From Agrypnia vestita (Eukaryota > Arthropoda > Insecta > Trichoptera > Phryganeidae), in NCBI GenBank assembly GCA_016648135.1, contig JADDOH010011057.1, positions 56,552-120,551 on the forward strand: a stretch of DNA of 64,000 nt, given 5' to 3'. A program made the translations under genes and the position numbers. The notes beneath the pieces were generated by a model that worked only from the letters and a program-made list of their open reading frames with translations, was not told the DNA's origin and made no database searches. Shown here in pieces: positions 2,759 through 35,540 of the stretch. The stretch's first letter is position 1, and each line of letters begins with the position of its first letter.

Positions 2759-3370
2759 TATGCCGAGGCAGGTCCACCCGGTGATTGGCGAAATTATGCT
2801 GTAAGTGATGAGTCAATCGAAGCTTCAGAAGAGTATCCAAACGATGATTCAAATGAAGAGTCATACAAAAAACCTTGTTGTCATACCACAACATGCACTA
2901 CTAAAAAACCTTGCTGCCACACCACAACGTGCACTACTAAAAAACCGTGCTGCCATAAGAAAACCACGTGCACTACTAAAAAACCATGCTGCCATAAGAA
3001 AACCACGTGCACTACTAAAAAACCTTGCTGCCATAAGAAAACCACGTGCACTACTAAAAAACCTTGCTGCCACACCACAACGTGCACTACTAAAAAACCA
3101 TGCTGCCATAAGAAAACCACGTGCACTACTAAAAAACCTTGCTGCCACACCACAACGTGCACTACTAAAAAACCTTGCTGCCATAAGCACACCACAACGT
3201 GCACTACTAAAAAACCGTGCTGCCATAAGCACACCACAACGTGCACTACTAAAAAACCGTGCTGCCATAAGAAAACCACAACGTGCACTACACCATGCCC
3301 AATACGCCCATGGTCGCATGAGGATGACAGCTCCGGCAGCCCTGAAGAGGAATATGATGATGAAGAATAA
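2759..3370 (+). CDS. Gene 1, repeat exon: secreted Cys-Cys-His/Thr-Lys repeat protein (5' partial)
   Basis: This exon encodes 203 residues in a frame that contains no methionine, so it must be joined to an upstream first exon. It opens after the acceptor TTTTTAACAG and begins Tyr-Ala-Glu-Ala, like the repeat exon of gene 2. Residues 1-37 are acidic (Asp/Glu/Ser-rich). Then come 11 near-identical units built on Lys-Pro-Cys-Cys-His followed by two to five Lys/His/Thr residues and Cys-Thr-Thr-Lys-Lys-Pro. The last 20 or so residues are acidic again and end Asp-Asp-Glu-Glu before TAA. Each unit carries three cysteines and one histidine, so dense disulfide bonding or metal binding is possible. The Thr runs could be O-glycosylated. 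I infer an extracellular structural, silk-coat or glue role from composition and kinship with gene 2. The signal exon is not visible in the window. Two long minus-strand frames over the same repeats are by-products of the repeat. Confidence 0.8.
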   Translation, partial: YAEAGPPGDWRNYAVSDESIEASEEYPNDDSNEESYKKPCCHTTTCTTKKPCCHTTTCTTKKPCCHKKTTCTTKKPCCHKKTTCTTKKPCCHKKTTCTTKKPCCHTTTCTTKKPCCHKKTTCTTKKPCCHTTTCTTKKPCCHKHTTTCTTKKPCCHKHTTTCTTKKPCCHKKTTTCTTPCPIRPWSHEDDSSGSPEEEYDDEE

Positions 3371-3465
3371 AAAAAGTAATTGACATGGTCTTCTCTATAA
3401 ATTTTAAATTTTCTGGTCGTCAGGTGTAATGCATAAACATTTTAATGGATGTATTTCTGAAAAGT

Positions 3466-3471
3466 AATAAA
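3466..3471 (+). other. Poly(A) signal of gene 1
   Basis: AATAAA lies about 95 nt past the TAA stop of the gene 1 repeat exon, a normal distance for a 3' UTR. Confidence 0.55.
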
Positions 3472-6400
3472 TTATTTTGTTAATATGTACATAGACATCA
3501 ATTTTTCGATCATACCCAAACTTCCACTTTCCAATGTATAGGAGTTCCAGATAACGATAAAAATGTTATGTTTTCTAATTTTTTTTAAATTTTCAAAAAA
3601 CTTCTGTAGTTCTGTAATTTATTTTAAAATCTATCTAAACAATATTTAAAAATAAAACGGATTTAAAAAAATGGTTGAATAGTAGAAGTTAAGTAACAAA
3701 AAATTACCAAAAAGTTATTATAAATATTAAATTATTACAAAAATTTGGCCGAAAAAAATCAGTTTTTAAAGCCATGTAGCAAAACCTCGGTAGCGAGAGC
3801 TGACTTTTGAAAAATTTCGGTAGCAAAAGCTCAGATGCTTTTTAAACATTTTTTATTTTAGTTATTTTCTTTTAGCACATTTAGAGTAGATTTTTTATTG
3901 TCACGAAATGCGAGACCATGAATTAAGTTAACGATACGACTTTTAATTTAATTAGCTGGAATTAAATTAATTAGAGAGGTCCTGGCTACGCCAGGAGGCG
4001 GAGGTACTCGAATTCGCACCTCGTGCTCTCAGGCTGTATCGCTATTCTTTCAATCAGTCACTTAGAGGGTGGGACGGGGAGACAAAATAAAAAAATTATA
4101 TAACAAAAATAATTATATTCCTAGAAATCAAACCTTAACCTACGGACACACAAAATAAATCAATAAAAGAAAATTATACAGAAGTAGCTTATGGTACAAT
4201 TACACGTGACATCATATATTATCTATAGGGGCACAATGAATATACAAACAACAACAAAAATTAATCTTATTACTACCTTAAATCTCCCGTCTTCTCTTCG
4301 TCGTCTTATTTCAGCCACGCGTGGTGCGATGATGGCCACGTCTTCCACGTTCCCGTCTTCTGTGCCGGCACTGGCGGCCTGGTAATCGCCCTGATAGCCG
4401 GATCCACTGATCCTATCGTCTTCTTCTAGACCTGTCTATAACAGCGGTAGTATCAAGCTACTCAATCCACCTGATGCCGCTGTTGATAGACTTCTAGGTC
4501 CTCGTTCGAGGGGTCCACTGGACGGTCGCTCTGACCGGTCCTGACCGTTGCCTCTGGAGACACTTCCCTGTCTTCCGCGGAGCTCCTCTGCATAGTCAAC
4601 TCAACTGTCGCACTGACACGTTGAATTCCACTACTTCTGTTCTACCACACGGCCAGTAGGCATCTCGTCACTCTCGTCTGCGGAGCACTTCGACCCTCAC
4701 TGGTCCACTCTCAGCCGTCGTGACTCACTCCTTTCTCCGGGCTTCAACTGTCACACCTTCTCTCCGGGTTTCAACTCACACTGTGGGAGGGGCCAGCCGT
4801 CTCTTATATAGAGTCTTGGCGGCTGTGGGCCTGCCTCTCCACGTCTAGCGAATCCCTTATTGGATAGGTCTAATTTTTGACTACACCCCCCCTAATATTT
4901 ATTTTACTATTAATTAACTAAAAAAATAAACACCTTAATATTAGTACAACTGATAAAAACAATACATACAATTAATTACATAAATATATTCGACTAAATT
5001 GTACTAGAAATATTTATTTATTTTATTTAATAATCTATTTAACTAATTACCTTAAAATTTAGTACAACTGGTAAAAACAATTATTTTATCACTATACAAA
5101 ATCTTAGCACTTAGTAGGTACCTAACCCCTTTTTATTAATATAGCTAACATATATTTACATTCAAATTATAAAGTACATCTCTATCTATACATTTACCTT
5201 AATCTATACATTCTACATTACATTAAAGTCCAATAAAAAAACACACAGTAAGAAGTAGGTATATTCACTTCCCTGTCAAAATATAATCGTCAAAATCACA
5301 AGGTAATAATCATATATTATACATCAGTCTTAACTACCTATTAAGGAACATTTAATTATCGATAATCTTAATATAATATTGATATTTACAAGACAATATC
5401 TCCCTCATTCTAGAGTAGGTCCTGGCTACTTGTAATAATGGGTGGTTTGAAATTCAACGGATGTGACTTGACAGCGATAGCTAAAAGAGATCTATGGAAT
5501 TTTTTCTACATGTCCTTATTTTTCTATTATATAACATTACAGACAGTTTTTCGGTCGTCGTAATTAATGTGTTTCTATCCTAAGACAATCGGCCAGTACC
5601 CGGAAAAGTTGCGGTAGACCATGTAACCTGTCAATTCTTCGTAATATATTTCTTCCTTATAGAGACAATGGCGGACCTTCCTAACATAATGTATTTATTA
5701 CCCAGAACTTATTCGTTAAAAATCATGTTCAATATTTCTTTATGAACGAACGGTCGTTTCAACCAACGCAGCTAACACGTGTCCGGCCCACACAATGAGG
5801 GTGTTTTTATGACAAGAGAGAATTTTAAATGGATTGACCCTTGGCTCCCGTATCTCTTACAACAAAAACAAACGACCACCCCGTCGTCGGGAATAATTAC
5901 GATCGAAATTGGCGCGTTTTCCACAATAAAATTAATATAAAAGTTGTTAAAATTAAATTTTAGTATGTAATGAAATGCGTGCCAGAAGCTGCCAAAGAGA
6001 GTATAATGTGTATATTTTATATGTTAACTGTGTGTAACTGTCAAAATTTTATTCACTTGATGTTAGTGTTCCAGTAATATACATAATGTATTGTCGACCA
6101 CCTTAAAGCGAGTACCAAGCGTAAGGATTCTGAATTCAAAGGCCGACAAATGATTGGCTATATGTTGTTGTCGATTTTTGACTGCGTTCAGCTGCATTTG
6201 ACAGATTGCCATCAGTTTGGAAATGCCCGCTGGTAAAACCTTGTAATTACTATTCGATTCATCAGATTTTTAATAATGGAGACGACAACATCAATTGAGA
6301 AATTTCAGGGGAAGCCGCTATTATCATGGTAATGTATACTTTTACATTTGAATATATAGTTTTTACTTTAATATCAATTTAATACGTAGTTTTTAATATA

Positions 6401-6587
6401 TGCCAAAGAAGTATAACTTCTAACGCGTGTATAAAAGTACACATACCCACTTTTTTGTATAAATACAAATAAGTGTTATTGAAAAAATAAAATATTATAG
6501 GAACAGCGCCCAAGATATTTTTAATTTAATTAATTATTTGTATTTTATTTTTATTACATAATCAACAACTTATATATATACATAATT
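3472..6587. other. Intergenic, AT-rich
   Basis: No gene is seen. Apart from the GC-rich repeat element at 4270-4880 this is AT-rich sequence with stop codons in all frames. The phrase GGTCCTGGCTAC occurs at about 3978 and again near 5418. It may mark the ends of a larger old insertion around the GC-rich element, but I could not establish terminal repeats. Confidence 0.5.
4270..4880 (-). repeat. GC-rich interspersed element with TATA box, copy 1 (minus)
   Basis: On the minus strand a TATATAAG box near 4802-4809 is followed by a GC-rich, purine-rich stretch with no long frame. That stretch includes a phrase like CAGCGGCATCAGGTGGATTG and a GGCTATCAGGGCGATTACC near-palindrome. The same succession, in the opposite orientation, is present at 41275-41960. 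A TATA-driven, noncoding, repeated unit suggests an LTR/5' leader of a retroelement or a repeated noncoding transcript. The class is not resolved. Confidence 0.55.
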
Positions 6588-7105
6588 TCATTTATTTATT
6601 TCTTAATAAATATTACGGGACTCGCTTCCATAAATAAATGAAAAATATAAATAACATATATACTTAATTTGCAGTTTAACAAAGAATACTTCCATTATTC
6701 GGAAATCGACTAGCGGGAAGACGTCAAAGCTTCGTTTGATATTCTCGCAACAATCGATTACTCTCCTAATAAAAAATGAAATAATATAAATAAGTGAATC
6801 AAATATTGACGACTTATTAAGTGGCTGGGATAGTGAAATTGGTATCACGTTGTCACAAAGGTCCGTGGTTCGAATCCAGGTTCCAGCATTTAATTTTTCA
6901 GTTTTATCATTTGATATTTGTGTGTTTTTCTTAATTTCATTTATTTATTTCTTAATAAATATTACGGGACTCGCTTCCATAAATAAATGAAAAATATATC
7001 AGTTTTATCATTTGATATTTGTGTGTTTCTCTTAATTTCATTTATTTATCTATTAATAAATATTACGGGACTCGCTTCCATAAATATGAAAAATATAAAT
7101 AACAT
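6588..7105. repeat. Three-copy repeat with conserved ACGGGACTCGC core
   Basis: A roughly 65 bp phrase containing AATATTACGGGACTCGCTTC recurs at about 6588, 6935 and 7035. Copies 2 and 3 are tandem, about 100 bp apart, with a shared TTTTATCATTTGATATTTG spacer. A tRNA-like sequence sits between copies 1 and 2, so the block may be a rearranged SINE or a small satellite. Confidence 0.65.
6824..6888 (+). pseudogene. tRNA-like sequence, probably SINE head or tRNA pseudogene
   Basis: The ends GCTGGGA and TTCCAGC pair over seven positions. A D-arm-like GTGA...TCAC with the A-box phrase TAGTGAAATTGG and a B box GGTTCGAATCC are present. The anticodon arm is too short to fold (about 15 nt between the D arm and the T arm), and the T stem has a mismatch. 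It is therefore unlikely to be a working tRNA. Confidence 0.55.
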
Positions 7106-7163
7106 ATGTATATATATATGTATATATATATATATATGTATATATTATATATATAGATATAAT

Positions 7164-7368
7164 GTTAGTTCTAACTGACTTTGGGGTACCCGCGTCAAAT
7201 TCTGGTCGTCAGGACCTCGTCTGCCGACGTTTCGAACAGATCTCAATGTCATCTTCAGGCGCATTGTCCGGCCCAAACGTTGTAGCTCTTTTGGAGAAGC
7301 AGCTCATCGCCAACTGGTCCTGACGCCAGAATTTGCGCGGGTTACCCCCAAATTAGTTAGAAACTAAC
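7164..7368. mobile_element. MITE-like element with about 50 bp inverted ends
   Basis: The left end GTTAGTTCTAACTGACTTTG is mirrored on the right by ACTAACTAATTTGG in the reverse complement. The match continues through the phrases ACCCGCG, AAATTCTGG and GTCAGGACC on both arms, with a few indels. The core is unrelated single-copy sequence without a frame. AT microsatellites flank both sides, so the target duplication cannot be read. Confidence 0.7.
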
Positions 7369-7593
7369 ATATTTTAACCCGTGAAGCCTTAGTGTTTTTA
7401 ACATATATAATATGTTATATATTCTATAATATATATATATATATAGATATATGAATATTGGTGGTTTTGAATTTGACTTGAATATATAATTTCTTCTTCA
7501 GTGGGCTTCCCCATTTAATGTTCGAGCCTCTGAGTTAGCCTGCGATGTCTTTGACCATTTTCCTTCCTCCAGCCCTTTTTTCTATATGCCCGC

Positions 7594-7680
7594 AATTTGT
7601 ATATATATATATATATATATATTATATACATATATCTATATATATATATATATATAAATATATATATATGTATATAATAT
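7594..7680. repeat. AT/ATAT microsatellite
   Basis: A long run of alternating TA with occasional CATA and GTATA interruptions. Similar tracts lie at about 7105-7160 and 7430-7455. Confidence 0.9.
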
Positions 7681-8398
7681 AAGTTATTTAGTAAATTTAA
7701 AATTAATGGCAATAAATCTGATGATCTTTCGATATTTTACGAGATAGAGCCAAATCATTTGAAAACGAGTGTTACTTCAATTACACCTCTAAATAGAGGA
7801 GTCTGTAGTACGTAACCCCATAACGTTCTGGTTATTTATTAAATCAAAATGTATATCATTCAACCTGCCAAGTAATATGACATACGGTCATATCAGGTTC
7901 TGACATATGTAATTATTTTTCAGATTATTTTTATTCTACGATTTCCAATCCCGCTTCACGTACTCAAAATACGAATTTTCTCACCGTTTGTTTTATTTCA
8001 TCAATAGAAGTCAGTAAATTCAACATAAAACATCAATTTAAGCATCTTGATATAAATAAATCTGCTGGACCTGATCAAATACCGCCAATATATTTAATTA
8101 AATGTGCTGATATAATCGCTATGCCTCTATTTTATTTAAAACTTCTATTAAGAATGGATTTGTGCCAGATATCTAGAAATCGGCATTTATTACGCCGATT
8201 CATAAAAAAGGCTTGAAATCAGACGTCGCAAATTATAGGCCTGTTTCTATTGTGCACAATTGCTAAGGTTTTCGTGAAGATTATATATGATCAAGTCTAT
8301 GCAACTCTTCATCACTCGATTCATCCAGATCAACACGTATTCGTCAAAGGGAAGTCAACCGTCTCCAATATAATCCTTTTTAATTACTCTCTAACTGA

Positions 8399-9748
8399 GC
8401 CCTTGCCCGGAATAACGTTGTATCCAACAATACTCTCATTCCGAGAAAAATTGAAAAAATGAAACCAGTTACAATTTATTACATTTTATATTTTAAATAT
8501 AACAAACATATAATTCTTAACTAATCTCAATATAAAATAGGTGGAAAAGTCAATTAAATTTGAATATATTGTAAAAAAACATGCTGAATCAGTGGAAAAA
8601 CGTTGTAGGTATATGAAATTTTCACAAACAACGTTATTCCGCAAAATGGATTTTTTTATTCTGCTTTACTTGATAATGCCTTTTAAAAGCAGCATGTGCT
8701 CATCTAACATGAATTCACAAATGTCATTGAGGTCCTTGAGCTTAACAGTCTTATTGGCAGTAGATTGGAATACATTGAAGTTAGTTCCAGGCTCCCTAAC
8801 TGCATGATTTTTTTCCAAACGGTAGCCAATCTTGCCCTCCTTCCACAAATAGTTGGTAGAAAGCTATAGGAGGTCCATGATTCTAATTCTTTGAGGAAGG
8901 TTTGAGCTCTGATTGTGATGAGATCATTAGTAGGTAAAGAGCTTTTACGGAACGATAAGTCTCTCGTACATACTATTACATATCTCCGTCTGTTTGCTGA
9001 ATATGGCGTCGGACATTCAATTTTTTAATACACAAGACGAGATGATTACTTTTTTCATTGTAATTCAGTAACCTGAATACTGATTAAATATTTATCTTGA
9101 TATTAAAATGGAGAAAACATCCCGGATTTAAACATTTTTGGCACAAACTCGACCCTGCGAAAAAGAATGAGGAATTAAATAAACTTTTTGTATCGGTGTT
9201 ATATTAAGTTACGATATAAAGAGCACTATAAAGCCAGCATTATTATCAAAAAGCATTTCAAATATCAATATGGATAAATCAATTGAGTAAAATCGGTTAA
9301 CGTTCGACAAAATAATATTGTCACATATGAAATCACAATATCAATCAGAACTGCCAAATCGTATACAACGTTATTCCACAAACATGTTCTGGCGGGTCAA
9401 TTGCAGGTTTGATAATATTTTTTCTGGATAAAAACTCCTTTCCTGCATCCTTCAACTTATTGGCTTTGATATCTTTCCAATTTAGAACATTAGATGTTCG
9501 TTTTCTCCCTTTATTCATGTGAATTAAACCACGCTCCACGATATTGACGCTCGGCGACGCCATTTTGAGAAACACTATACAACGTTATTCCACAAACCAA
9601 TAACTTTAAAATGCAGCCAGAAGCTTAAATATTTTTTTCTTGACATATTATTTACCTTAAACGATGCATAATAACATACCTAACATAACTCCATCAATAA
9701 CTCAAAATTGACAATTGTGTTGGATACAACGTTTTTCCGGGCAAGGGC
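8399..9748. mobile_element. TIR DNA transposon (1.35 kb) inserted in the LINE
   Basis: The ends are inverted repeats of about 31 bp. The left end begins GCCCTTGCCCGGAATAACG, and the right end finishes CGTTTTTCCGGGCAAGGGC. The flanking 8-mers CTAACTGA (8391-8398) and TCAACTGA (9749-9756) match at six of eight positions. Removing the element and one flank rejoins the LINE reading frame, which fixes the boundaries. An 8-bp duplication fits hAT, P or Merlin elements, but the terminal bases do not decide between them. No transposase was recognised; short minus-strand frames at 8666-8848 and 9345-9575 remain unassigned. The TIR core ACAACGTTATTCC recurs inside, near 8623, 9364 and 9580. Confidence 0.8.
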
Positions 9749-10352
9749 TCAACTGATAAAATGGATAATGGACTTCAAACAGATGTGATCTATACTGATT
9801 ATAGTAAAGCGTTTGATAGAATAGATCATCATTGGTTGATTAATAAGCTCTTCCTGGCCGGAATACGTGGCGACTTGCTAAGGTGGTTTGCATCCTACAT
9901 GGATAATAGAACTCAGTCTGTGGTAGTAAGCAACTACATGTCGAGTTGGGTTGCAGTTCCCAGCGGAGTACCCCAGGGATCACTGCTGGGGCCATTGGTG
10001 TTAACAATCTTCATTTCCGATATTCACGATTGCTTTTGTCACTCTAGGGTCCTAATTTTTGCCAACGACATGAAAATTTTTAAACCAATTTCTAGTATTT
10101 ACGATTCGTTAAATTTACAAGATGATTTGCTACGGTTAGATAATTATTGTAAATTAAATAAACTTGACTTGAATCCCTCAAAATGTTCTTATGTAGTTTT
10201 CGCACGCAAAAATAATAAAATATCATTTAACTAAATACTCAAAGGAGAACAATTAGATAGAGCTACATCAATCAGAGATTTAGGGATGATCAATGATACC
10301 AAATTATTATACGATAACATATCGATTCTATTATAAGTAAGGCTTATAGGGC

Positions 10353-10820
10353 TGTGGTGGAGCCAGACCTGCCTGGACTCTAGCCCCTCGAGCGTGTAAA
10401 ACGGACCAATCGCGCTCGAGGGATACTGCCCAATGAGAAGCCCGAGGCGCCGACAAAGTACCAAACTCATTCTCTCATCGACCGTCGCCCGCAATACCAC
10501 GCTTAAACTCACGCTCCGTATATTGTTGTATACGCATTCTCCAACATGTAAAGTTTTGTGACTGCAATAAATCATCGAGTTAATTGTGAGTACATATTTC
10601 TATTCATCCTGTATCACATCCCGCCTTACATACACCTTCACACACATTCACACACACGCCTTCAGCGTTCACTCTACATGCATCAGACTGATTGTGCATT
10701 TTGGCAGAGGTGCACAGTCACACTGCATCCTTAGTGAATACACGCACATTACGTTAAATCATATCCGCCACATTGGTGATACCGATTTGATTTATAGTTA
10801 CAAAACAACCATGTGCTACA
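10353..10820 (+). mobile_element. Probable solo LTR inserted in the LINE
   Basis: The block opens TGTGGTGGAGCC and ends TGCTACA (TG...CA ends, 468 bp). It is flanked by GGGC on the left and GGGT on the right, resembling a 4-bp target duplication. LINE coding sequence resumes directly on each side (Ser-Lys-Ala-Tyr-Arg before, Leu-Gly-Phe-Ile-Leu after). An AATAAA lies near 10566 in the middle, as expected of an LTR R region. There is no internal retroelement sequence, so this looks like a recombined solo LTR. The family is not identified. Confidence 0.6.
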
Positions 10821-11289
10821 GGGTTTTAGGTTTTATCTTGAGAATATCTAAAGATTTTAAGTGTGTAAAGACATTGATAGTACTTTACTGCACTTTTGTC
10901 AGAGGCAACCTTGAGTACGAATCCCAAGTATGGAAACTACAGTAACTATGTAAATCGCTCGGAACACATTAAAAACATTTATTCGCTTTCTCTACTTCAA
11001 ATTTAATTGCGTATCTGATGATTATGTAGTTTATGCAAAAAATATCACATCCTACCATTATACAAACGTCGGGAAATGGGTGATTTGATGTACATACTAA
11101 AAATTGTATCGGGCGACGTTGACTGTCCTGAACTATTAAATAGACTAAAATTCCATGTTCCCTGTAGGTCTCGTAGATACAACCCAGCATTTTACTTCAT
11201 CCAACTATCGTTGTAATTCATATCAACTACAAACATAGAAAGTCAAGTCGTAGAAAATCAAGACCAGTATATAAACATTAATTGAATCA

Positions 11290-15992: not shown

Positions 15993-16046
15993 ATGAGGGT
16001 TTTACGATTGTCCTTTGTCTTCCTAACTTTTCTGTTTGCATATCAA
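15993..16046 (+). CDS. Gene 2, exon 1: signal peptide
   Basis: Eighteen codons give a classic secretory signal: Met-Arg-Val-Leu-Arg, then a Leu/Phe/Val-rich core, ending Phe-Ala-Tyr-Gln. The exon stops in phase 0 at a consensus donor (CAA then GTAAGT). The TATA box at 15903 and the short leader support this ATG. Joined to the acceptor at 20858, the protein continues Tyr-Ala-Asp-Ala, so signal cleavage is expected close to the exon junction. Reading through the donor instead runs 45 codons into the intron without resemblance to anything. Exon 1 of gene 3 has the same length, phase and ending type (Phe-Ala-Phe-Asn). Confidence 0.85.
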
Positions 16047-16319
16047 GTAAGTACACGCCATGTTATTTTCTTAACGACAACTTTCGTGATTTGTCGAATC
16101 ACAGGGATCCAAGTGATACCATTTGTAAACAATCGTCACATCCCGTTCTCAGAACAACGTTGTACTCTTCGTCAATTTTGACGTGACGATATATAAAATA
16201 AGTGCCAATATTATTTTAAATGATTAAATTATAAGGTTAGAAATTAGATCGTTTCGCTTATTACTACTTATTTATTCATCCTGTAGTGGATTACTTCACA
16301 AATACATAAATTTTAGTAA

Positions 16320-17290
16320 AATTATAGACACATTTAGCAATCTAAAACTTACTAATACTGGAGTATCCCAGAGATCCATTCTTGATCCATAACTAAATAT
16401 TATTTATGAATCTACTATGTCTAAAATCTTTAAGTATGCCAAGCATTTTGCGTATGCTGAAGGTGCTGGTCTTGTGATTTCCCACAAGGATGTAAGATGG
16501 ACGGAAAATTGTATCCAGGAGGACTATAATGCTTTGCTTAAATGGTCTCATGATATGGTTTAGTTATTAATGCAAAAAAAAACTAAGTCATGCGTCTTAA
16601 GTCAACTCATATAACTGCGACTAATCAAATAAATATTATTTCTCATAATTTCGATTGTTTACATTCCGAAATTAATGCATCGTATAATTGTAAAAAAATT
16701 AATTAGTTAATGAATAGGTGTATCTTGGTACTACCATTGATATATTCTTCAAATTCGATACTCAGATAAATAAGGTATGTAAGAGATTGAGAACTGTATT
16801 GGAACGTATGCGCAAGATTAAATATTGTGTTCCGATGCAGATTGTGAAAACTATACATCAATCTTTAGCGGAATCGGTAATAAGGTTATGAATAACTAGT
16901 TGGGGTCTACCTTGCAAAAAATAAATTAGAAAAATCCAAAATATTCAAAATTTGGCAGTAAAATTAATAAATAAAGATAGTGCTACTAAAGATATACATG
17001 AACTCTTCAAGAAGCAAGGCTCTATGCACATTCGTGGTATCTTGTGGTACAAACCAATTACACGATATCACGAAGGTGAAACATATAAACATATTGATTC
17101 ATAAACATAGTACCAGATTTACTAAGGTTTAAGAAGGACTACGAATACCGAAGGTCATAAATAAGTATGGACAAAGAACACTGAAATATGTCATACCAAA
17201 AATATTTAATAAAAAAAATGGTCAAAAGACAGAATTAACGAAAATGTTATGAAATAGAAGAGACTTATTTTGATTTTTGTATTTTTATAT
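16320..17290 (+). pseudogene. LINE reverse-transcriptase fragment in the gene 2 intron
   Basis: The plus strand carries, across stops, a degraded Gly-Val-Ser-Gln-Arg-Ser-Ile-Leu motif near 16360 and the sequence after it that normally holds the catalytic loop (Tyr-Ala-Lys-His-Phe-Ala-Tyr-Ala, with the aspartates gone). A C-terminal section around 16770-17070 is similar in layout to the LINE at 7930. It has many stops and is inactive. Confidence 0.65.
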
Positions 17291-17927
17291 TGTTTCTTGT
17301 ATTATTGATTTGTATTTGAGTTTTTAAGATTTACGTATTTATTTCATATGTATGTATTCTGGTGTTTATAATGAACAATTTGTAAATATATTGATGCACC
17401 TACAAATGTCCAAGGAAATATTGATATTTGATAGATGCTCGAAATTTCTCGTAAAGTAAGTTCATAAAATAAGTACGCCCCGCAGTATATAAAAATTTAC
17501 AGAGATAAACTTATAACATTCTTTGGGATGACGCGTAGGGTCACAGCGAAAGAGTTTCTCCCCTCATTTGTACTCTTACGACACGTTTGTAATCCAGTTA
17601 AAGAATTTATTCTTGTATAATCTTTAACTTTTTTAAATTCCCCTCCAAACCTGAACTCTTAGTTAAAAAGTCTTGTTGCAATAATGCGCGACTTGTTTAC
17701 TAAGAAAGTATACTTTTTAAGTATTTATAGTTTTACCTTTTGACGCGGAAGCAGTGGTATCTCCAGGAACCACACGTAGAGGGTTTCTCTCATGCTCCTT
17801 TAATTGGACATCATTTGTTTTTTATGGAATTTTTTTTATTTTGTATGATAAATTAAAGACTCCTTATATTCAAGAACACATTCGTATTTATGAAGTTGTA
17901 ATTTTTCGGAACAAAGTTCTATGAAAT

Positions 17928-18071
17928 TTTAAAACCAAATTAATTAATCAATTAGAAAGACATACAGAAAAATCTAATCCACGAAAAAGTATTTGGCTAA
18001 GCCAAATATTGTTTCGTGGATTAGATATTTCTGTATGTCTTTCTAATTGATTAATTAATTTGGTTTTAAAA
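17928..18071. repeat. 144-bp near-perfect palindrome, no loop
   Basis: The arms of about 72 bp meet near 17999/18000 (ATTTGGCT and AAGCCAAAT) and differ at about three positions. Each arm includes AATTAATTAATCAATTAGAAA and ATCTAATCCACGAAAAA. The same phrase occurs once at 55590-55655 next to a tRNA-like head, so the palindrome consists of two SINE 3' parts joined head to head. Confidence 0.9.
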
Positions 18072-18689
18072 TACTCCTTTGTCACAAATGTTAAAATTTA
18101 TTACCAAACTTTAAATAAAATTATTCAAAAATGAAATTAAAAATATGAAAAAAAATTTTTTTTTTTAAAACAGTTATTTTTCATAAAAAATAAAAAATAA
18201 TTCAAATAACAAAAAAAAAATATTTTTCTACCATTCTTCAAGGGAGTTACTTTTGAACGTATGAAACAAAAACATTTAACATGTTCGTTGCACAGTGGTT
18301 TTTCACAACATTATATTTTGGTACAGGTTTTTTTTCTTCTATGCCAGATTCGAACATATTCCATGAAGATTGTGTTAATTATCTTAGGATCGAAAATGCA
18401 ACAGTTTTTTCCATTCTCTGGCGAAGATCTGACGATACACTTTGAATACTCGTCCCCCTGTGGTGTATGGTTTTATCAACTGAATACCCAGCCACCTTAA
18501 AAAAATCGGCGCTAACGACTAATTTCAAAATTGCTAGAAAATATTATTTTTCCGTTAATATCAGCAATTTTGAAAAGGGAACGGAACAGTTTGAGGCCAT
18601 CTATTACTTTTTCTGGTTCTTATACCTTTCATCTCATCAACACCGAACTTGGTTGGTCACTGTTGGAATCGATAGTAGCGAAGGGAAAA

Positions 18690-19330
18690 ACTACATTTCA
18701 AAATGAAGACTACAACACACACATTCACCAGTTTGAAGACTACAAAGTGTACACTACAATTATAGTAAAAACTACTTGAAGTGAAGTAATTGTAGTACTA
18801 CGAAATGAAGTGAAGTAATGAAATGAATTAATTGTAGTATTAATGAAGTGAAGTGTAATGAAATGAAGTAGGTAATGAAGTGTAATGTAGTACTAGTGAG
18901 TTAATATTTTTTTCCTAAATAAAAATTTGGCGACCTAAAGAAAAAAAAAAAAGGTCGCCAGCCAGACTTTTTCATTCGATTCCAAAAAATTTTCAATCCA
19001 TGGGGGGGGGGGGGGTGTTGTTACAGTTTCCAGAGATTTCTTCGTTTTTAGCTACATCATCTTCCCAAAAATACATCCAATACTTCCAAAAATTTCACGT
19101 AAATAATGCACTATTTAAAGTATGTTTCTCATACTTTCGATAACTTTGAAGTGTATGTACTTTGTAGTGTTCGCTTTGAAATGAAGTGTACTATTTGAAG
19201 TTTATACTTTCAATAACTTTGGTGTCTGTAGTTTGTAGTGTGCACTACACTTCAAAACGTGCGAAGTGTGCACTTCAATGTAGTGTAGTACTACATTGTA
19301 GTAGTGAGTATAGAGCGGACCCATCACTAA
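18690..19330. repeat. Cryptically simple GAAGTGTA-rich block
   Basis: Repeated GAAGTGAAGT, GTAGTACTA and CACTTCAA phrases occur at both ends of the block, partly inverted. A run of at least 13 G lies near 19002. The right edge reads GGACCCATCACTA, which resembles a hAT-type end, but I found no matching left end. It may be a decayed non-autonomous element. No coding is seen. Confidence 0.5.
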
Positions 19331-20857
19331 TCGATAGAGTAATAACATATTCTTCTTCCAGCCATAAAGCGATAGTGCCGACTGCTTCTAAATTCATCAG
19401 GTTTAGCATTTGTCTAGAGGTCGACCGCTGTGAATCCCTGTCAATCTAAAAAAATGTAAAAATCAGAAAATCTTCGTATAATATATCGGGAAAATATTAA
19501 TTTACTTAAAAATACTATATATATAAAAATGTTGCATATGATACATGTTGATAATTTTTGCGATAAATCAAAACTTATAATTTTTTGAAATTGCGTGGAA
19601 ATAGAAATCATACGTCATTAGTGGCTCAATGAGAGAATCCCTCACGACTGCGAGGCGCGTGCAGATAGCCCTCCGTAGTACGGTTGCTTGAGTACTAAGT
19701 AAGTAACTAAAGGTACAGGTCGAGTGGAAGCAACAATTATTACGCTTTATTTATATGCCAGACGTTTAAAAATTTTGGTGAGGGAAACCCTCATTACGCC
19801 ACTGCTCCCGGGTTAATAATTGTTTTAAATTTTACAAGCTCGTAGTAATTATCTAAAACAAGTCGTGGCACCAGGTTTAAATAAAATTACGTTTTCTCTA
19901 TGGTACGCCCCTTATATTTTTGAGTGTTATGTGTATTTTTAAAGAAAAAATTACTATCTTAATTTTTATAGACAAATCTCAACCTTGTTGTTCCAAGGTC
20001 AAGATCTGTCAATATATCGACTGTTTCTTTATTTCTTACCTTTCAGATTAATTAATTAAAGGGTTCTGTGGTTACTTGGTGGTGGACTTTGTGGAGATTT
20101 TGTTTCTGTCAAATCACAGGCAATAAGTTAACATTTTCCCTGCATTGTGAGATAAAAATCTCGTACTTATCTGAATGTCTCGTCACACGTCCGAGATATT
20201 CAAGTTTTTATTTATTTTACTATTAGAAAAAAAATAATGTAAAGAGATATTTTTCTTAATTCATCCGACCAACATAATCTTCATTCGTAACTCTGTCCAC
20301 CCAGCTTATTAAGGTATTATTCTGTACATCCACATCTCGAATGCCTTAAATCGCCTGATCAATATCGTTCTAGTATTTGATCATTCACATTCGTAATTTA
20401 TATAATATTTGTCACTATTATAAAAACATAACACATATGCATATAGACAAGAAAATATAAATATCTACTCAGTTTTATTATAAATTCGCATTTTTCTTTA
20501 TTCATCCGAAAATTATATTAAAAATCAAAAGCATTAATAAGAATGTGTTCTGTAATATAATATTTTATTAAAATTGTATATTTCACAAGTTTTACAAATT
20601 CATTTATGTGACTTTATAAACAATTTACGTATGTTAGTTAAGTTTTTTAAGGTGTTAAAAACTAAAGCCTTCAAGCCCTAAGGCTTGAGAAGAAATATGT
20701 GAAAATATACCATTCGTGGTAAAATGGTAACTCAATACAAGATATGAACTCATACTATATACCAAATCAATCTTACAGTAAAATGCAGCTTCATACATCT
20801 GCAAGACATTCCCAGACCTGTGTATCATTTAACACTGTGTAATGTTTTTCCCAACAG

Positions 20858-22252
20858 TATGCCGATGCGAATCCTTGGGGACGATCGCCTCACCACCACC
20901 ATCGGCGTTACTACAATGACTACGACAATGACTACTACAATGACTACTACAATGACTACTACAACGACTATGACAATTACTTAGATTCCAGAGAAGTTTG
21001 TAAACCAACTCGAAGACCTTGCCATGAGCATACCACTCCATGCACAACCAAGAAGCCTTGCCATGACCATACCACTCTGTGCACAACCAAGAAGCCTCCG
21101 TGCACAACTGAAAAACCAACAACATGCACAACTAAAAAACCAACGACTTGCACAACTAAAAAACCCACAACTTGCACAACAAAAAATCCCTGCACAACCA
21201 AAAAGCCCACAACATGCACCACTAAAAAGTCAACATGCACAACTAAAAAACCAACAACATGCACAACTAAAAAACCAACTACATGCACAACTAAAAAACC
21301 CACAACATGCACAACTAAAAAGCCAACATGCACAACTAAAAAACCAACAACATGCACAACTAAAAAACCAACAACATGCACCACTAAAAAACCAACATGC
21401 ACAACTAAAAAACCAACAACATGCACAACTAAAAAACCCACAACATGCACCACTAAAAAACCAACATGCACAACTAAAAAACCTACTACATGCACAACTA
21501 AAAAACCCACAACCTGCACCACTAAGAAGCCCACAACATGCACCACTAAAAAGCCTACATGCACGACTAAAAAACCAACAACATGCACAACTAAAAAACC
21601 CACCACATGCACCACTAAAAAACCTACCACATGCACAACTAAAAAGCCCACAACATGCACCACTAAAAAGCCAACATGCACAACTAAAAAGCCCACAACA
21701 TGCACCACTAAAAAGCCAATATGCACAACTAAAAAACCCACAACATGCACAACTAAAAAGCCCACCACATGCACCACTAAAAAGCCCACGTGCACAACTA
21801 AAAAACCTACTACATGCACAACTAAAAAACCCACAACATGCACAACTAAAAAACCCAGAACATGCACAACTAAAAAACCCACTACATGCACTACTCCGAA
21901 ACCCACTACATGCACAACTCCTAAACCCACCACATGCACAACTCCGAAACCCACTACATGCACAACTCCACAACCCACTACATGCACAACTCCGAAACCC
22001 ACTACATGCACAACTCCTCAACCCACTACATGCTCAACTCCTAAACCCACTACATGCACAACTCCTCAACCCACTACATGCACAACTCCTAAACCCACTA
22101 CATGCACAACTCCGAAACCCACAACATGCACAACTCCAAAACCCACTACATGCACGACTCCGAAACCCACTACATGCACAACTCCGAAACCCACAACTTG
22201 CACAACAACATTGCCAACTATTTGCACGACGGTTAAACCATGCCTTGGATGA
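20858..22252 (+). CDS. Gene 2, exon 2: Cys-Thr-Thr/Lys-Pro mucin-like repeat protein
   Basis: The exon adds 464 residues to the 18 of exon 1 (482 in total) and ends Cys-Leu-Gly before TGA. Its frame has no ATG. After Tyr-Ala-Asp-Ala come four His, then a Tyr/Asn/Asp run (Tyr-Tyr-Asn-Asp repeated). Two transition units of the type Pro-Cys-His-x-His-Thr-Thr-x-Cys-Thr-Thr-Lys-Lys-Pro echo gene 1. About 50 short units of seven or eight residues follow: Cys-Thr-Thr-Lys-Lys-Pro-Thr(-Thr) up to about 21890, then Cys-Thr-Thr-Pro-Lys-Pro-Thr-Thr with Gln variants. Cys, Thr, Lys and Pro make up almost everything. Drosophila salivary glue proteins such as Sgs3 have a similar Cys/Thr/Pro composition. By analogy the threonines may carry O-glycans and the product may be a silk or salivary glue or mucin. 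That is inference. Other frames over the repeat stay open only because the repeat lacks stops. Confidence 0.85.
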   Translation, partial: YADANPWGRSPHHHHRRYYNDYDNDYYNDYYNDYYNDYDNYLDSREVCKPTRRPCHEHTTPCTTKKPCHDHTTLCTTKKPPCTTEKPTTCTTKKPTTCTTKKPTTCTTKNPCTTKKPTTCTTKKSTCTTKKPTTCTTKKPTTCTTKKPTTCTTKKPTCTTKKPTTCTTKKPTTCTTKKPTCTTKKPTTCTTKKPTTCTTKKPTCTTKKPTTCTTKKPTTCTTKKPTTCTTKKPTCTTKKPTTCTTKKPTTCTTKKPTTCTTKKPTTCTTKKPTCTTKKPTTCTTKKPICTTKKPTTCTTKKPTTCTTKKPTCTTKKPTTCTTKKPTTCTTKKPRTCTTKKPTTCTTPKPTTCTTPKPTTCTTPKPTTCTTPQPTTCTTPKPTTCTTPQPTTCSTPKPTTCTTPQPTTCTTPKPTTCTTPKPTTCTTPKPTTCTTPKPTTCTTPKPTTCTTTLPTICTTVKPCLG

Positions 22253-30142: not shown

Positions 30143-30202
30143 ACTAGTAATATGTAATTACACTTCAGAGCGACACTCTAGCCGGAGATCTGTTCCCTGT
30201 AA

Positions 30203-30584: not shown

Positions 30585-31614
30585 GGGATCATAAAATATA
30601 TATTATTATTACAATTTAATATTTATTTTACATGGACCGTTTCTTTTCTAATTTTCATTTTCATTGAAAATAATAGCTGTTCGAGATTTTGACATCTTCT
30701 TGAATGGCGGTCTTTTGTATTATGAGCGTGCTTATATTGATTTCCATATTTTTTCTTTTCAATTCTGCCGATATTTTTCCGGTGAGGATCATTAAAATAT
30801 TTACCTTAACGTCGTAATATATTACAGGTTAGATACATTGAGTTCTTTCAATTCTAGTATTTGAGCCACGAGATTCCATTGCGATCTCCATGGATCTTCC
30901 CCAAATTACATTCAGAGGAAAACCAAATTCATGGGTGGTGCAAAGAAATGCTCAGATACAGAGTCATGGATTGCGTGACGTGATACAGAATAGAATTGAA
31001 ATGATGCCAGGGAGAAGAAGAAGAAGTCATACAGAGAAGATTGGTAACTCATCGGTCAAATAAAAAATCTGAGGGAAACAACTCCTGGAAGACAAAGGAC
31101 ATCCTGGCTATGAAAAGCAACACACCACATGCATAGCCGGATAGTTTGATGAGCAAAGGCTCCTATATTATTCCTTCTAATTCGCCGGAACAAAGTGGGA
31201 CAGCAGAAATTCAGCACGGAATTGTCCGTACAGCGCAAAATAAATTTAATCAACATCAACAACTCCAAGGTTCGAAAACCGGACAAGCAATATAAGTTTA
31301 TACCAATCTCTTCTCAACATTGTTCTCGCAGTCTAATTTCGCAGTACTAACAATAATGCTACAACCTAATTGCCAAATCTGGTTCGAACCAGCTACTTAT
31401 TTAATAATTACGGTACAGTATTTTCGCGTTTGTATTTTTGCAGATGTTGGATGCAATCAATCATTTTTTGACAGTCTGTAAATATTCTGGCCTATAGAAT
31501 TAACATAAATAGATAGATAATACAACGGGGTTGTATAACACATCTCGCAGTTACCAAAATATTTTTGGACTGCTTCGTTGCTTCTGGAGCGAGCAAGCTC
31601 CGAGCGGCCCAGCC

Positions 31615-31671
31615 ATGACGCCCGTCAAGATCGTCTTCTTGTTTTCCTCGGTGTGCCTCTTCGCTTTCAAC
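31615..31671 (+). CDS. Gene 3, exon 1: signal peptide
   Basis: Nineteen codons from an ATG in a favourable context (CCAGCCATGA) give Met-Thr-Pro-Val-Lys, then a hydrophobic Ile/Val/Phe/Leu core, ending Phe-Ala-Phe-Asn. The donor is GTGAGT in phase 0. Length, phase and ending resemble exon 1 of gene 2. With exon 2 the mature protein begins around Asn-Ala-Ala-Ala-Ser-Pro-Cys. A weak TATA-like GTATAAC lies near 31530, about 85 nt upstream, the same distance as in gene 2. The reading frame through the donor ends after 74 codons without similarity to a known domain. Confidence 0.8.
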
Positions 31672-33581
31672 GTGAGTATTTCACTATGTGATCGTAACAT
31701 GTTCTTCGACGTCTTTCCCGCGGTCGCATCCGTGGATGTGGATACATTGGAGTAGGTAATATTTTTTAATATTCGAATGAATGTGTGGTCACGATATCCG
31801 GTTCGTTATATACGACTTGAAGTTTGTGATTCTACCTGATTCTTCTCTGTCCATATTCCTGTGTAGTATATTTTTTTCTCTCGGATATTATATTTTCTAA
31901 TAATTTTTCTAAATTTTCTCGTGTTACTTGTAGCCACATTTAATTTCATATGACAAAATGATAATTCTGTTTAGTTTCACTGTTTATTTACAACAATAAG
32001 AACGTTTTCCATCATCATCTTCTGTAATATTAGTATCTTTAACTTAAGATCGACGAGAGAAGTGAAAGGGGGATGAGAATCTGATTTGTATATGGGCGTG
32101 GTTACTAAGCACAAAAGAGGGGACGTAATAGAATCTGAAAAAAGTTTTTAATATGGTAATTTTGAATCATTACACGTCTCTTTAGCATCGCATAGGCGAA
32201 ATTTCCACCCTCCTTCTTTACCCCTTCCTCTCCCCTGATATATAACACGTTTTAAATTAAATTTAAAATAAAGAGAGAAATTCTAAAGTGCCCACGATTT
32301 AAATGATTTTAGAATAGTGCCAGAATGTGGGTACGTGCCCGAACATCTGAGATAATTTTTAAATTATTTTCAAATGTGTGCGTGTCTGCATGTTTGGCAA
32401 AAAAGTATATTAGAATGCATTATCTCCGACATCAAGTCGATGTGCAAAATTTCAGCGTGATTGGATGACGGAAAATATGTTAATTTTCACTCCCATGATT
32501 TTTACACGGTAAAGGTTTTATAAAGGATTAAAAAAAAAACTACCATACAAAAAGAATATTTAATTAATTAATTAGAACGAATTCAATAAAGAAATCCATT
32601 CTTTATTGAAAAGACTGGGTGACGCTATTTGTCGTGCGTTAGAATCTACCAAATAGTTATACTTAGGTATGTTAGGTAAAAGATGAATCTTTGTCCAAAT
32701 GTACTATTCGTATTACGAAGTTGCATTTTATTTTGTAAGGTGGTGGTGAAGTTGCATTTTATTTTGTAAAATAGTGGTGTTGTAGTGTGTTGCTGCACGG
32801 TGCAACGAAGATTCATTCTAATCCCAACAATAATAATTTCGCCGTCTGTCTATAACTTCCTTTAATTTCCGTTACTCATTCATTTACAGATGCAAAAGTG
32901 CATTTTACTTAATTCATTTTACACATTGATATTTTTAACTCAACTATTCGGGATGTAAAACGAAAATTAATTTCGCACCCAATCCAGTTCTCTCAATTTA
33001 TGTTCCCATATACTCCCATCCTTTCCTTTGTCCTAATCCTACGTCCCACTTCGTCCTTTCTCAAAAAAATTGAAACAATATATGTCACACTTTGCAAATA
33101 ATTGACATAATTTACTATTTTTTATATAATGTTTGTTAATTTGAGATTTGCTGTTAATTTTTTCTAAAAATAAACAAATCACAATATTTTTTTTTTCTTA
33201 CTTTATTTCTTCTTTTTTTTAAAAAAAATAAATACTTATTCTTTAGAATTTGAAATATAAAGGTAAGCTCATTGTTGGTGTTACAGCTAGTTTAAAGTAA
33301 TTGCAGTATAGAAAGTGAATTTAAAATAAACTGAATAATGTAAAGTGTTGCATTGTCGGATCTACTTTTTTTGACATCACTATAATATACGTTTCTGAAC
33401 TTTGATAAGCAGGTCTATTATATCGCATAACCCTCTATCTCATGTGGAACGGTATCATCAAAACAAATCTCTCTATGTAATTCTTCTGTGTAGTCAGTTC
33501 GAATAATTGTGCATGTACCTCTTAGAAACTCCAACATTACACCAAGAGGATAGTGATAAAAATGTTTTTTTTTTCTAACAG
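31672..33581 (+). other. Intron of gene 3 (1.9 kb)
   Basis: Bounded by GTGAGT and by a polypyrimidine tract ending TTTTCTAACAG. It is AT-rich. It carries a CCTCTCCCCTGATATATA phrase near 32223 that recurs near 27713, 36018 and 52550, so part of it is an interspersed repeat. No coding is seen. Confidence 0.75.
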
Positions 33582-35540
33582 AATGCGGCTGCATCACCTT
33601 GCATAGCGCAGCGGGAAGCACTACCAAAGCCTTGTGGTCTTCCGGTGATCATACCAAAGCCTTGTATTCAGCCAGTACTGTCGAAACCTTGTGTAAACTC
33701 ACCTCCACCACCACCAAAGCCTTGTGTAAAGCCATCCCTACCCCTACCCCAGCCTTGTGTAAAGCCACCCCCACCCCCACCAAAGCCATGTGTAAAGCCA
33801 CCTCCACCCCCACCCCAGCCTTGTGTAAAGCCACCTCCATCCCCACCCCAGCCTTGTGTAAAGCCACCTCCACCCCCACCCCAGCTTTGTGTAAAGCCAC
33901 CCCCACCCCCACCAAAGCCATGTGTAAAGCCACCTCCACCCCCACCCCAACCTTGTGTAAAGCCACCCCCACCCCCACCAAAGCCATGTGTAAAGCCACC
34001 TCCACCCCCACCCCAGCCTTGTGTAAAACTACCCCCACCCCCACCCAAGCCTTGTGTAAAGCCACCCCCACCCCCCCCTCCACCAAAACCTTGTGTAAAT
34101 CCAGGCCCACTCCCACCCCAGCCTCCTACAAAGCCACCACCATCCCCACCAAAACCTTGTATAAAACCACCACCACCACCACCTCCACCAACACCACCGA
34201 AGCCTTACGGGCTAAGCCGAAGCGAATCACGCTCTGTCAGTGAAGCCGAAGCTTCCAGCAAATCAAAATCCTCCAGCAGTTCCAAATCTGCAAGCGAATC
34301 AAGCTCCGCGAGTGAAGCCGAAGCTTCCAGCAGATCCAGGTCTGAAAGCGAATCACGCGCCGCTAGTGAATCTGAGGCTTCCAGCAAATCAAAATCTTCC
34401 AGTCGTTCAAAATCTGAAAGCGAATCAAGCTCCGCGAGTGAAGCCGAAGCTTCCAGCAGATCCAGGTCTGAAAGCGAATCACGCGCCGCTAGTGAATCTG
34501 AGGCTTCCAGCAAATCAAAATCTTCCAGTCGTTCAAAATCTGAAAGCGAATCAAGCTCCGCGAGTGAAGCCGAAGCTTCCAGCAGATCCAGGTCTGAAAG
34601 TGAATCACGCGCCGCTAGTGAATCCGAGGCTTCCAGCAAATCAAAGTCTTCCAGCCGTTCAAAATCTGAGAGCGAATCAAGCTCCGCAAGTGAAGCTGAG
34701 TCTTCTAGCAGGTCCAGGTCTGAAAGCGAGTCACGCTCCGCCAGTGAAGCCGAAGCAGCTAGCAAATCAAAATCTTCCAGCCGTTCAAAATCTGAAAGCG
34801 AATCAAGCTCCGCAAGTGAAGCTGAGTCTTCTAGCAGGTCCAGGTCTGAAAGCGAGTCACGCTCCGCCAGTGAAGCCGAAGCAGCTAGCAAATCAAAATC
34901 TTCCAGCCGTTCAAAATCTGAAAGCGAGTCAAGCTCCGCAAGTGAAGCTGAGTCTTCTAGCAAGTCCAGGTCTGAAAGCGAGTCACGCTCCGCCAGTGAA
35001 GCCGAAGCAGCTAGCAAATCAAAATCTTCCAGCCGTTCAAAATCTGAAAGCGAATCAAGCTCTGCGAGTGAAGCCGAGGCTTCCAGCAGATCCAGGTCTG
35101 AAAGCGAATCACGCGCCGCTAGTGAATCCGAGGCTTCCAGCAAATCAAAATCTTCCAGCCGTTCAAAATCTGAAAGCGAATCAAGCTCCGCGAGTGAAGC
35201 CGAAGCTTCCAGCAGATCCAGGTCTGAAAGTGAATCACGTTCTGCCAACGAAACCGAGGCTTCCAGCAAATCAACATCTTCCAGCCGTTCAAAATCTGAA
35301 AGCGAATCAAGCTCCGCGAGTGAAGCTGAGGCTTCCAGCAGGTCCAGGTCTGAAAGCGAGTCACGCTCCGCCAGTCAAGCCGAGGCTTCCAGTGAATCAA
35401 GGTCTTCCAGCTATTCCAAATCTGAAAGCGAATCAAGTTCTGCAAGTGAATCTAAGTCTTCAACCAGCTCAAGGTCTTCCAGTGAATCAGCATCAAAAAG
35501 CTATCCAGATGGCGGAATTGAAGAATGTGACCTTTACTAG
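33582..35540 (+). CDS. Gene 3, exon 2: Pro/Cys-rich plus Ser/acidic/basic repeat protein
   Basis: The exon encodes 652 residues (671 with exon 1) and ends Glu-Cys-Asp-Leu-Tyr before TAG. It begins Asn-Ala-Ala-Ala. Domain 1, residues 1 to about 208 of the exon, is built of 11-residue units of the form Cys-Val-Lys followed by six or more Pro and Lys/Gln-Pro, giving one Cys per unit. Domain 2, about 209 to 640, is Ser-rich: ten copies of a 42-residue unit in which serine alternates with Lys/Arg (basic half) and with Glu/Ala (acidic half). Ser-x-Glu sites are frequent, the sequence that secreted Fam20-type kinases modify, so phosphorylation is plausible. Sericins and caddisfly (Ser-X)n silk proteins have comparable serine-rich repeats. 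A secreted silk-coat or adhesive protein is my best inference. Long frames in other registers and on the minus strand are by-products. Confidence 0.85.
   Translation, partial: NAAASPCIAQREALPKPCGLPVIIPKPCIQPVLSKPCVNSPPPPPKPCVKPSLPLPQPCVKPPPPPPKPCVKPPPPPPQPCVKPPPSPPQPCVKPPPPPPQLCVKPPPPPPKPCVKPPPPPPQPCVKPPPPPPKPCVKPPPPPPQPCVKLPPPPPKPCVKPPPPPPPPKPCVNPGPLPPQPPTKPPPSPPKPCIKPPPPPPPPTPPKPYGLSRSESRSVSEAEASSKSKSSSSSKSASESSSASEAEASSRSRSESESRAASESEASSKSKSSSRSKSESESSSASEAEASSRSRSESESRAASESEASSKSKSSSRSKSESESSSASEAEASSRSRSESESRAASESEASSKSKSSSRSKSESESSSASEAESSSRSRSESESRSASEAEAASKSKSSSRSKSESESSSASEAESSSRSRSESESRSASEAEAASKSKSSSRSKSESESSSASEAESSSKSRSESESRSASEAEAASKSKSSSRSKSESESSSASEAEASSRSRSESESRAASESEASSKSKSSSRSKSESESSSASEAEASSRSRSESESRSANETEASSKSTSSSRSKSESESSSASEAEASSRSRSESESRSASQAEASSESRSSSYSKSESESSSASESKSSTSSRSSSESASKSYPDGGIEECDLY
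34251..35480 (+). repeat. 126-bp coding tandem repeat inside gene 3
   Basis: The phrase GCTTCCAGCAAATCAAA recurs at exactly 126 bp steps (34251, 34377, 34503 and so on) for about ten units. Several neighbouring units are almost identical at silent sites, and a variant block (GCAGCTAGCAAATCAAA) occupies three consecutive units from about 34755. That points to recent unequal exchange. The last unit is diverged. Confidence 0.9.

Follow-up and report, generated by a model that had tools for sequence, protein, structure and literature searches.

Tandem two-exon genes for repetitive secreted proteins, probably silk-coat genes, in a caddisfly genome

Results

Gene structures

The window analysed here is the whole 64-kb stretch at positions 56552-120551 of contig C10000 (120.5 kb, from an assembly of 1.32 Gb in 19,947 contigs). 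It carries three plus-strand genes for low-complexity secreted proteins, called genes 1 to 3 below. The original prediction, made from the sequence of this stretch, had described them as one tandem family, and its coordinates, exons and motifs are as it gave them. The parts of the three genes are as follows, in window coordinates unless a contig is named (aa, amino acids; nt, nucleotides):

C10000:47985-48038, plus strand, outside the window: gene 1 exon 1, MRFLRLDLVFLVSLFAIH, then gtaagt
2759-3370, plus strand: gene 1 exon 2, 203 aa, YAEA followed by (CC-H...CTTKKP) repeats and an acidic tail
15993-16046, plus strand: gene 2 exon 1, 54 nt, MRVLRLSFVFLTFLFAYQ, phase-0 donor GTAAGT
16047-20857, plus strand: gene 2 intron, 4.8 kb, with a palindromic element resembling a miniature inverted-repeat transposable element (MITE) and, by eye, a stretch like a long interspersed nuclear element
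20858-22252, plus strand: gene 2 exon 2, 464 aa, YADA with tracts of His and of YYND, followed by two PCxHxHTTxCTTKK units like those of gene 1 and a series of CTTxxP units
31615-31671, plus strand: gene 3 exon 1, 57 nt, MTPVKIVFLFSSVCLFAFN, phase-0 donor GTGAGT
31672-33581, plus strand: gene 3 intron, 1.9 kb
33582-34208, plus strand: gene 3 exon 2, Pro/Cys part, NAAA followed by ~11-aa PCVKPPPPPP(K/Q) units; 54% Pro, isoelectric point (pI) 9.7
34209-35540, plus strand: gene 3 exon 2, Ser part, built up to the stop from (SX)n-type units that are each 42 aa (126 nt) long; 49% Ser, 18% Glu, pI 5.1

No signal-peptide exon for gene 1 was found within positions 1-2758 of the window. A like exon lies on the same contig about 8.5 kb 5' of the window start, which gives an intron of about 11.3 kb, and TATATAAG stands about 84 nt 5' of its ATG. 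This exon has the same design as the first exons of genes 2 and 3. For genes 2 and 3, the predicted first exons of 54 and 57 nt, canonical donors, phase-0 introns and single repeat exons are all present. The first exon had been said to encode the signal peptide and nothing else; the short exon is real, but the signal peptide is incomplete there. Because the small-residue cleavage motif at -3/-1 (YAEA, YADA, NAAA) sits in exon 2, the intron interrupts the signal peptide, some four codons 5' of the likely cleavage site in each gene (sites assigned by the simple -3/-1 rule and not by SignalP, and less clear in the gene 3 paralogue described below).

The stop-to-stop open reading frames (ORFs) of the repeats contain no Met codon in 205, 470 and 654 codons, stop included (genes 1, 2 and 3), and an in-frame stop lies 1, 5 and 1 codons ahead of the acceptor, so that each repeat exon needs an upstream exon. 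CTTxxP matches number 49 in gene 2 exon 2, and the three proteins end in EEEYDDEE, TTVKPCLG and GIEECDLY, respectively. Directly after the stop codon of gene 3 comes GTAACA; farther on stand an acceptor-like TTTTCAG, near position 36340, and AATAAA at 36477, so that an intron in the 3' untranslated region (UTR) is possible at 35541-36340; 3'-UTR exons are known for caz1, caz8 and caz9 (PMC11092239). Within the gene 2 intron, the MITE-like element is a near-perfect palindrome at 17926-18072 (95%, 147 nt), with a related copy at 55521-55653.

All three repeat exons follow AACAG, as had been noticed originally, and AACAG[TA]ATGC occurs in the 64 kb three times on the plus strand, exactly at the three acceptors, and not at all on the minus strand. 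We also searched all 120.5 kb of the contig for signal-peptide exons in phase 0 that are 45-69 nt long and have a donor matching at least 5/6 positions. This gave 12 candidates on the plus strand and 3 on the minus strand; with the full 6/6 GTRAGT donor, only the first exons of genes 1-3 are left on the plus strand, and one candidate on the minus strand.

The first 18 nt of the repeat exons were compared across 339 acceptor-like plus-strand sites (CAG after a pyrimidine-rich stretch), a comparison made after the likeness had been noticed. Genes 1 and 2 each have the other's exon-2 start as best match (13/18 nt), and gene 3 has its two best matches, out of the 338 other sites, in genes 2 and 1 (11/18 and 10/18; next best 9/18). 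For gene 1, however, gene 3 shares second place with an unrelated site, at 41905 (10/18 each), and part of the likeness of the gene 3 junction to those of genes 1 and 2 is due to the AxA constraint.

Relationships among the genes

Genes 1 and 2 had been called unrelated-looking, with one repeat body replaced by another. The motif they were said to have in common is confirmed by blastp (75% identity over 32 aa, E 1.8e-7), and their first exons agree at 11/18 residues and 36/54 bases, which none of 50,000 shuffles reached. As both the repeat unit and these exon-1 residues are common to them, they are plain paralogues. The N-terminal edge of the gene 2 array keeps two gene-1-type units (PCHEHTTPCTTKKPCHDHTTLCTTKK vs PCCHKHTTTCTTKKPCCHKHTTTCTTKK) and its core is a shorter CTTKKPT unit, which points to an array that was re-tiled, not replaced. 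The split between the two genes is old, since 8 of 13 synonymous sites are different in their first exons and a global alignment of the 200 bp upstream gives no more than 54% identity.

Gene 3 encodes a two-part protein, Pro/Cys followed by (SX)n. Runs of at least three SX pairs cover 210 of the 441 residues (shuffle mean 34, maximum 82 in 1000 shuffles), and there are 73 S..[DE] sites vs 40 in shuffles. Its exon 1 matches that of gene 2 at 4/18 residues, within the range of shuffles (p ~0.10), and that of gene 1 at 5, which is marginal (p 0.019). Common descent of gene 3 with genes 1 and 2 is thus weakly supported, by the architecture and the short junction likeness. It is quite possible, if short of an even chance, that genes 1 and 2 on the one side and gene 3 on the other are adjoining silk genes of separate origin, whose junctions look alike through AxA and splice-site constraint; such an origin would be compatible with the silk-coat reading proposed below. 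It would suit the low exon-1 identities, the lack of any likeness between the bodies and the fact that the AxA codons account for 4 of the matching junction bases. It would leave to convergence the same intron phase, the equal distance to the likely cleavage site, the near-equal exon lengths, the adjoining positions on one strand and the ranking of genes 2 and 1 as the best-matching exon starts of gene 3.

A divergent paralogue of gene 3, g3b, lies on contig C16426 (28.5 kb):

C16426:26469-26525, minus strand: g3b exon 1, 55/57 nt identical to gene 3 exon 1
C16426:22433-24265, minus strand: g3b exon 2, 610 aa, no internal stop

The two first exons encode 17/19 identical residues, with two amino acid changes and no difference over 12.7 synonymous sites. 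Upstream, the first 180 bp are 73% identical and the next 420 bp 42%; the introns (43%) and the 3' flanks (44%) look unrelated, as judged without a shuffle test. The proportions of synonymous and nonsynonymous differences (pS and pN) are 0.41 and 0.11 in the Pro part and 0.56 and 0.14 in the Ser part, four values that misaligned repeats may inflate. The Ser unit has 24 aa in g3b vs 42 aa (24 + 18) in gene 3. This pair is the best case of body turnover behind a conserved front. The idea that the front end was kept as the repeat body changed is seen in gene 3 and g3b, but not in genes 1 and 2, which were only re-tiled, nor securely between gene 3 and the other two.

Contig C16426 further holds, at 3327-10185, pieces 93-99% identical to C10000:59118-67645, among them a second copy of gene 1 (C16426:3327-4085) that encodes 188 aa, is near-identical apart from its repeat number and has the acceptor AACAC in place of AACAG. 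This contig would represent either the other haplotype or a duplication.

Coding constraint

Repeat copies within the exons were compared in 36-nt windows of at least 75% identity at offsets of 9-399 nt; the copy pairs overlap, and the counts below are not independent. Every matching offset is divisible by 3. Mismatches fall on third codon positions in 89/139 cases in gene 1, 1013/1530 in gene 2, 206/371 in the Pro part of gene 3 and 495/812 in its Ser part. This is the pattern of translated repeats under protein-level constraint. In our view it is highly improbable that these ORFs have no real transcripts behind them and represent pseudogenes, or tandem repeats whose frames are open by chance. 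Open frames come cheaply in repeats, and the AACAC acceptor in the second gene 1 copy means that copies can decay or that the assembly can err. Yet the third-position bias is present in all four repeat blocks, pN is below pS in exon 2 of gene 3 and its paralogue, canonical donors stand at the right places and TATATAAG precedes exon 1 of gene 1.

Fibroins and host order

The host, originally supposed to be a moth, is identified by its fibroin sequences as a caddisfly (Trichoptera). A search with a caddisfly-type sequence located an H-fibroin at C1086:51635-59626, with SVSISVSVEGGRRRGG-type repeats of the (SX)n, Gly/Ser/Arg caddisfly type. In the assembly, its repeat exon comprises 1800 open codons (G 27.2, S 14.7, R 11.0%), one break at about 57178-57214 and then an 804-codon frame (G 24.0, S 15.4, V 12.9, R 11.9%); FibH of Limnephilus lunatus is listed with G 27.8, S 17.2 and R 14.7 (Table 1, PMC11092239). 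The L-fibroin profile PF05849 has one match above the cut-off in the genome (43.3 vs 27 bits; covering positions 143-218 of the 242 in the profile), and the 14 control genomes gave no match. The H-fibroin and L-fibroin matches together rule out a moth. Exon 1 of the H-fibroin gene, MRASFLLIVLCYWQ, is 42 nt long and ends in phase 0 at a GTAAGG donor, followed by IHA|TGSS in exon 2, the same intron design as in genes 1-3.

Database searches

In Pfam (E 0.01), exon 2 of genes 1 and 3 matched no family, and Zonadhesin-like Til/EGF2 domains were not found; a Cornifin match, the sole family found for gene 2, was judged compositional. Scanning IMG/VR with gene 2 returned three pattern matches and no relative. 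The PDB sequence search gave nothing for gene 1 and one low-complexity match for gene 3 (E 4.7e-4). An AlphaFold model of gene 1 from its single sequence shows regular short strands at a mean predicted local distance difference test score of 68.5 (50.8-68.5 over five models), and none of the 26 Foldseek hits of this model had E <=0.001; because the model is unreliable and unmatched, we claim no fold. In a literature search that left most subscription papers outside, the motifs CTTKKP, CTTPKPT, CVKPPPP and PPKPCVK had no match in paper text, and no description of the trio was found among the listed papers (30 of 141, and 4) on cadhesin/pseudofibroin and caddisfly silk.

Other members of the cluster and rest of the window

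Two further genes of this kind, one of them probable, lie upstream on the same contig:

C10000:37419-37472, plus strand: gene B exon 1, MDFFKVVFILMMAFYAIE, then GTGGGT, donor 5/6
from C10000:38940, plus strand: gene B exon 2, 90 aa, T 22%
from C10000:31069, plus strand: probable gene A exon 2, 101 aa, T 35%

No first exon was found for gene A. Genes A and B are alike by eye, yet blastp between them finds nothing at E values up to 1, and exon 1 of gene B has 2-4 identities with those of genes 1-3, all within shuffles. Genes 1-3, gene B and the probable gene A thus occupy the same strand of C10000 from 31 to 92 kb, genes 1 and 2 being the only proven mutual paralogues.

Elsewhere in the genome, an open frame at C18958:29263-29805 matches gene 2 (E 5.9e-19, 27% identity), which may be a matter of composition. 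Weak matches of gene 1 on C18445 (a different tandem repeat) and C19635 (no similar ORF of at least 100 aa) were rejected, as was a gene 3 match on C1040 (a different repeat). Further relatives may exist among the remaining weak matches.

The rest of the window holds two minus-strand arrays of C2H2 zinc fingers, at 43954-45566 and 57363-58969, built from an 84-nt unit (FSCSQCDYSCNQKSNLKRHALTHTGEK) and about 67-79% alike; the second consists of two ORFs, split at about 58495. Pieces at 52995-54786 and 59370-60113 are dispersed duplicates, 88-93% identical, and probably belong to a transposon family. Fragments of retrotransposons without long terminal repeats lie at 9701-10945 (Pfam RVT_1) and 46424-46987 (by eye only), and a transfer RNA (tRNA)-like match at 55650-55724 on the minus strand (32.5 bits) is possibly a tRNA-derived short interspersed nuclear element.

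Discussion

Genes 1-3 very probably belong to a caddisfly cluster of cadhesin/pseudofibroin-type silk-coat genes. The original prediction of a tandem silk-coat or glue set survives to this extent: the genes encode repetitive secreted proteins, probably of a silk coat or glue, and have the two-exon front end in common, and the replacement it proposed does not apply to genes 1 and 2. The closest published counterpart is the Caz family of Limnephilus lunatus, most of whose genes have two exons and are clustered, with exon 1 coding for part of the signal peptide and a long, often repetitive exon 2 (PMC11092239). The same plan, including a short first exon with part of the signal peptide, recurs in our models of genes 1, 2, 3, g3b and B. 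Exon 2 is long, repetitive and rich in Ser or Thr (T 25.6%, T 41.3% and S 34.6% in genes 1, 2 and 3), as in most Caz proteins, and the genes are clustered with paralogues. Neither set has the conserved Cys sequence of FibH at the 3' end, the C-termini of genes 1-3 being, by inspection, unlike that of this genome's FibH. Table 1 of PMC11092239 has 15 entries, and composition was compared with each of them over those residues that the table gives. On this measure gene 1 is nearest to Caz1 (mean difference 2.6 points; next 8.1), with the same order of T > C=K > P (T 25.6, C=K 17.1, P 9.0 in gene 1; T 32.7, C=K 15.9, P 10.0 in Caz1), and gene 2 is nearest to Caz5 (3.9 points), then Caz1 (4.9).

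Several observations weigh against this interpretation. The composition of gene 3 has no close match among the listed Caz proteins, the nearest being Caz10 at 7.4 points. At E values up to 10, blastp links its body to neither gene 1 nor gene 2, and the exon-1 regions of genes 2 and 3 show no DNA likeness beyond 7-mers, a finding that would also suit a separate origin of gene 3; for genes 1 and 2, the DNA upstream is only 54% identical. Three protein database searches returned 23, 10 and 0 matches; the 7 of these 33 that were inspected are judged to be low-complexity matches, the named entries come from bacteria, various animals and one fungus, and none in the tables is a named insect silk protein. 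Membership in the Caz family is argued here from architecture, clustering and composition, and expression and a silk function are predicted from sequence models.

With the silk role deduced in this way, one could imagine that the three genes encode mucin-like proteins secreted by another epithelium (peritrophic matrix, cuticle, egg coat or some other glue), with a fibroin-like plan acquired by descent or convergence. Thr/Pro/Cys repeats are common in insect mucins, and one compositional match of gene 2 (P0025) looks by eye like a chitin-binding mucin, with no Pfam domain listed. However, the phase-0 intron splits the signal peptide as it does in this genome's H-fibroin, the cluster, its architecture and the Caz1-like composition fit a published silk family, and Cornifin in gene 2 is the one domain that Pfam finds, with none of chitin-binding type. 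We therefore consider a mucin of this kind improbable.

If the silk-coat interpretation is correct, the larval silk gland would make and secrete the products of genes 1-3, which would form a water-proof adhesive coat. The proteins of genes 1 and 2 would combine Cys disulfides with O-glycosylated Thr; that of gene 1 could also bind metal through Cys and His, and the YYND tract of gene 2 would be suited to Tyr cross-linking (dityrosine). The gene 3 protein would have a stiff Pro/Cys arm and, attached to it, an acidic (SX)n tail that could be phosphorylated and bind Ca2+ like H-fibroin; phosphorylated, Ca2+-binding (SX)n motifs are discussed for caddisfly fibroin (PMC11092239). This model of cross-linking predicts phosphate on peptides such as SESESSSASEAE and Cys-linked CTTKKP peptides. 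Unequal exchange would re-tile the repeats, and the front end would be kept because it is needed for high-level secretion, as we propose.

A bolder proposal is that promoter and exon 1 form a conserved, possibly gene-converted secretion cassette, ultimately common with H-fibroin, and that new coat genes arise when repeats, whatever their source, come to lie behind its phase-0 intron. Gene 3 and g3b offer a hint of this, with no synonymous change in exon 1 and 73% identity over the 180 bp upstream, compared with 43% in introns and 42% farther upstream, and re-tiled repeats. In genes 1 and 2, no exon-1 conversion is seen, given the 8/13 synonymous differences and the 54% upstream identity, which counts against a cassette and makes it, on balance, rather unlikely.

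These complete sequence models of caddisfly underwater-silk coat genes in their cluster, which include one more and one less diverged pair of paralogues, make it testable how glue repeats change against a constant secretion front end. They do the same for the chemistry of wet adhesion (Cys disulfide, Cys/His metal, Tyr and phospho-Ser), and the fibroin intron design is found in coat-type genes of one and the same genome.

Comparison with known silk and glue genes

In the Drosophila glue genes Sgs1/3/7/8 and Eig71Ee, too, an intron at one common position interrupts the signal peptide; the larger of these genes have fast-changing repeats, Sgs3/7/8 form a cluster and the Sgs glue is adhesive (PMC6352337). 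Their intron is in phase 1 (PMC6352337), unlike the phase-0 introns here, and they come from another insect order; the likeness would be one of mode of evolution, without demonstrated homology. Lepidopteran sericins are Ser-rich coat proteins as well, with repeats in large exons, clustered and fast-changing (PMC9745057, PMC9684489). By inspection, genes 1-3 lack the CXCX found near the C-terminus of Sericin-1-type proteins, and the host is not a moth. The cadhezin-like and sericin-like proteins of Neomicropteryx cornuta, a primitive moth, resemble genes 1-3 in their short exon 1, long repetitive exon 2 and small clusters, and two are proline-rich; this likeness is one of description only, and the proteins are much larger in the available table rows (PMC11906653).

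Among caddisflies, the pseudofibroins (Pfib) of Plectrocnemia conspersa have two exons, a very short exon 1 with part of the signal peptide and some repetitiveness; they lie partly on one scaffold and were found in silk (PMC9432349). They are Ala-rich (33-44% in four table rows), unlike genes 1-3, where Ala makes up 9.3% in gene 3 and is not one of the eight commonest residues in gene 1 or gene 2. This genome's own FibH resembles genes 1-3 in that a phase-0 intron divides the signal peptide a few codons ahead of the point where cleavage is likely, and its (SX)n motif is also present in gene 3; genes 1-3 differ in their much shorter bodies and, by inspection, in the lack of FibH-like termini at either end.

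The original view that no family with this exact trio was known is not borne out, since the Caz cluster of Limnephilus lunatus has the same architecture (PMC11092239). No Caz protein of its Table 1 has the Ser/Pro/Glu make-up of gene 3, and the Cys/His units and the fusion of Pro/Cys and (SX)n parts are unmentioned in the available portion of that paper. With these features, genes 1-3 would add well-resolved members to a kind of silk-coat gene described in 2022-2024.

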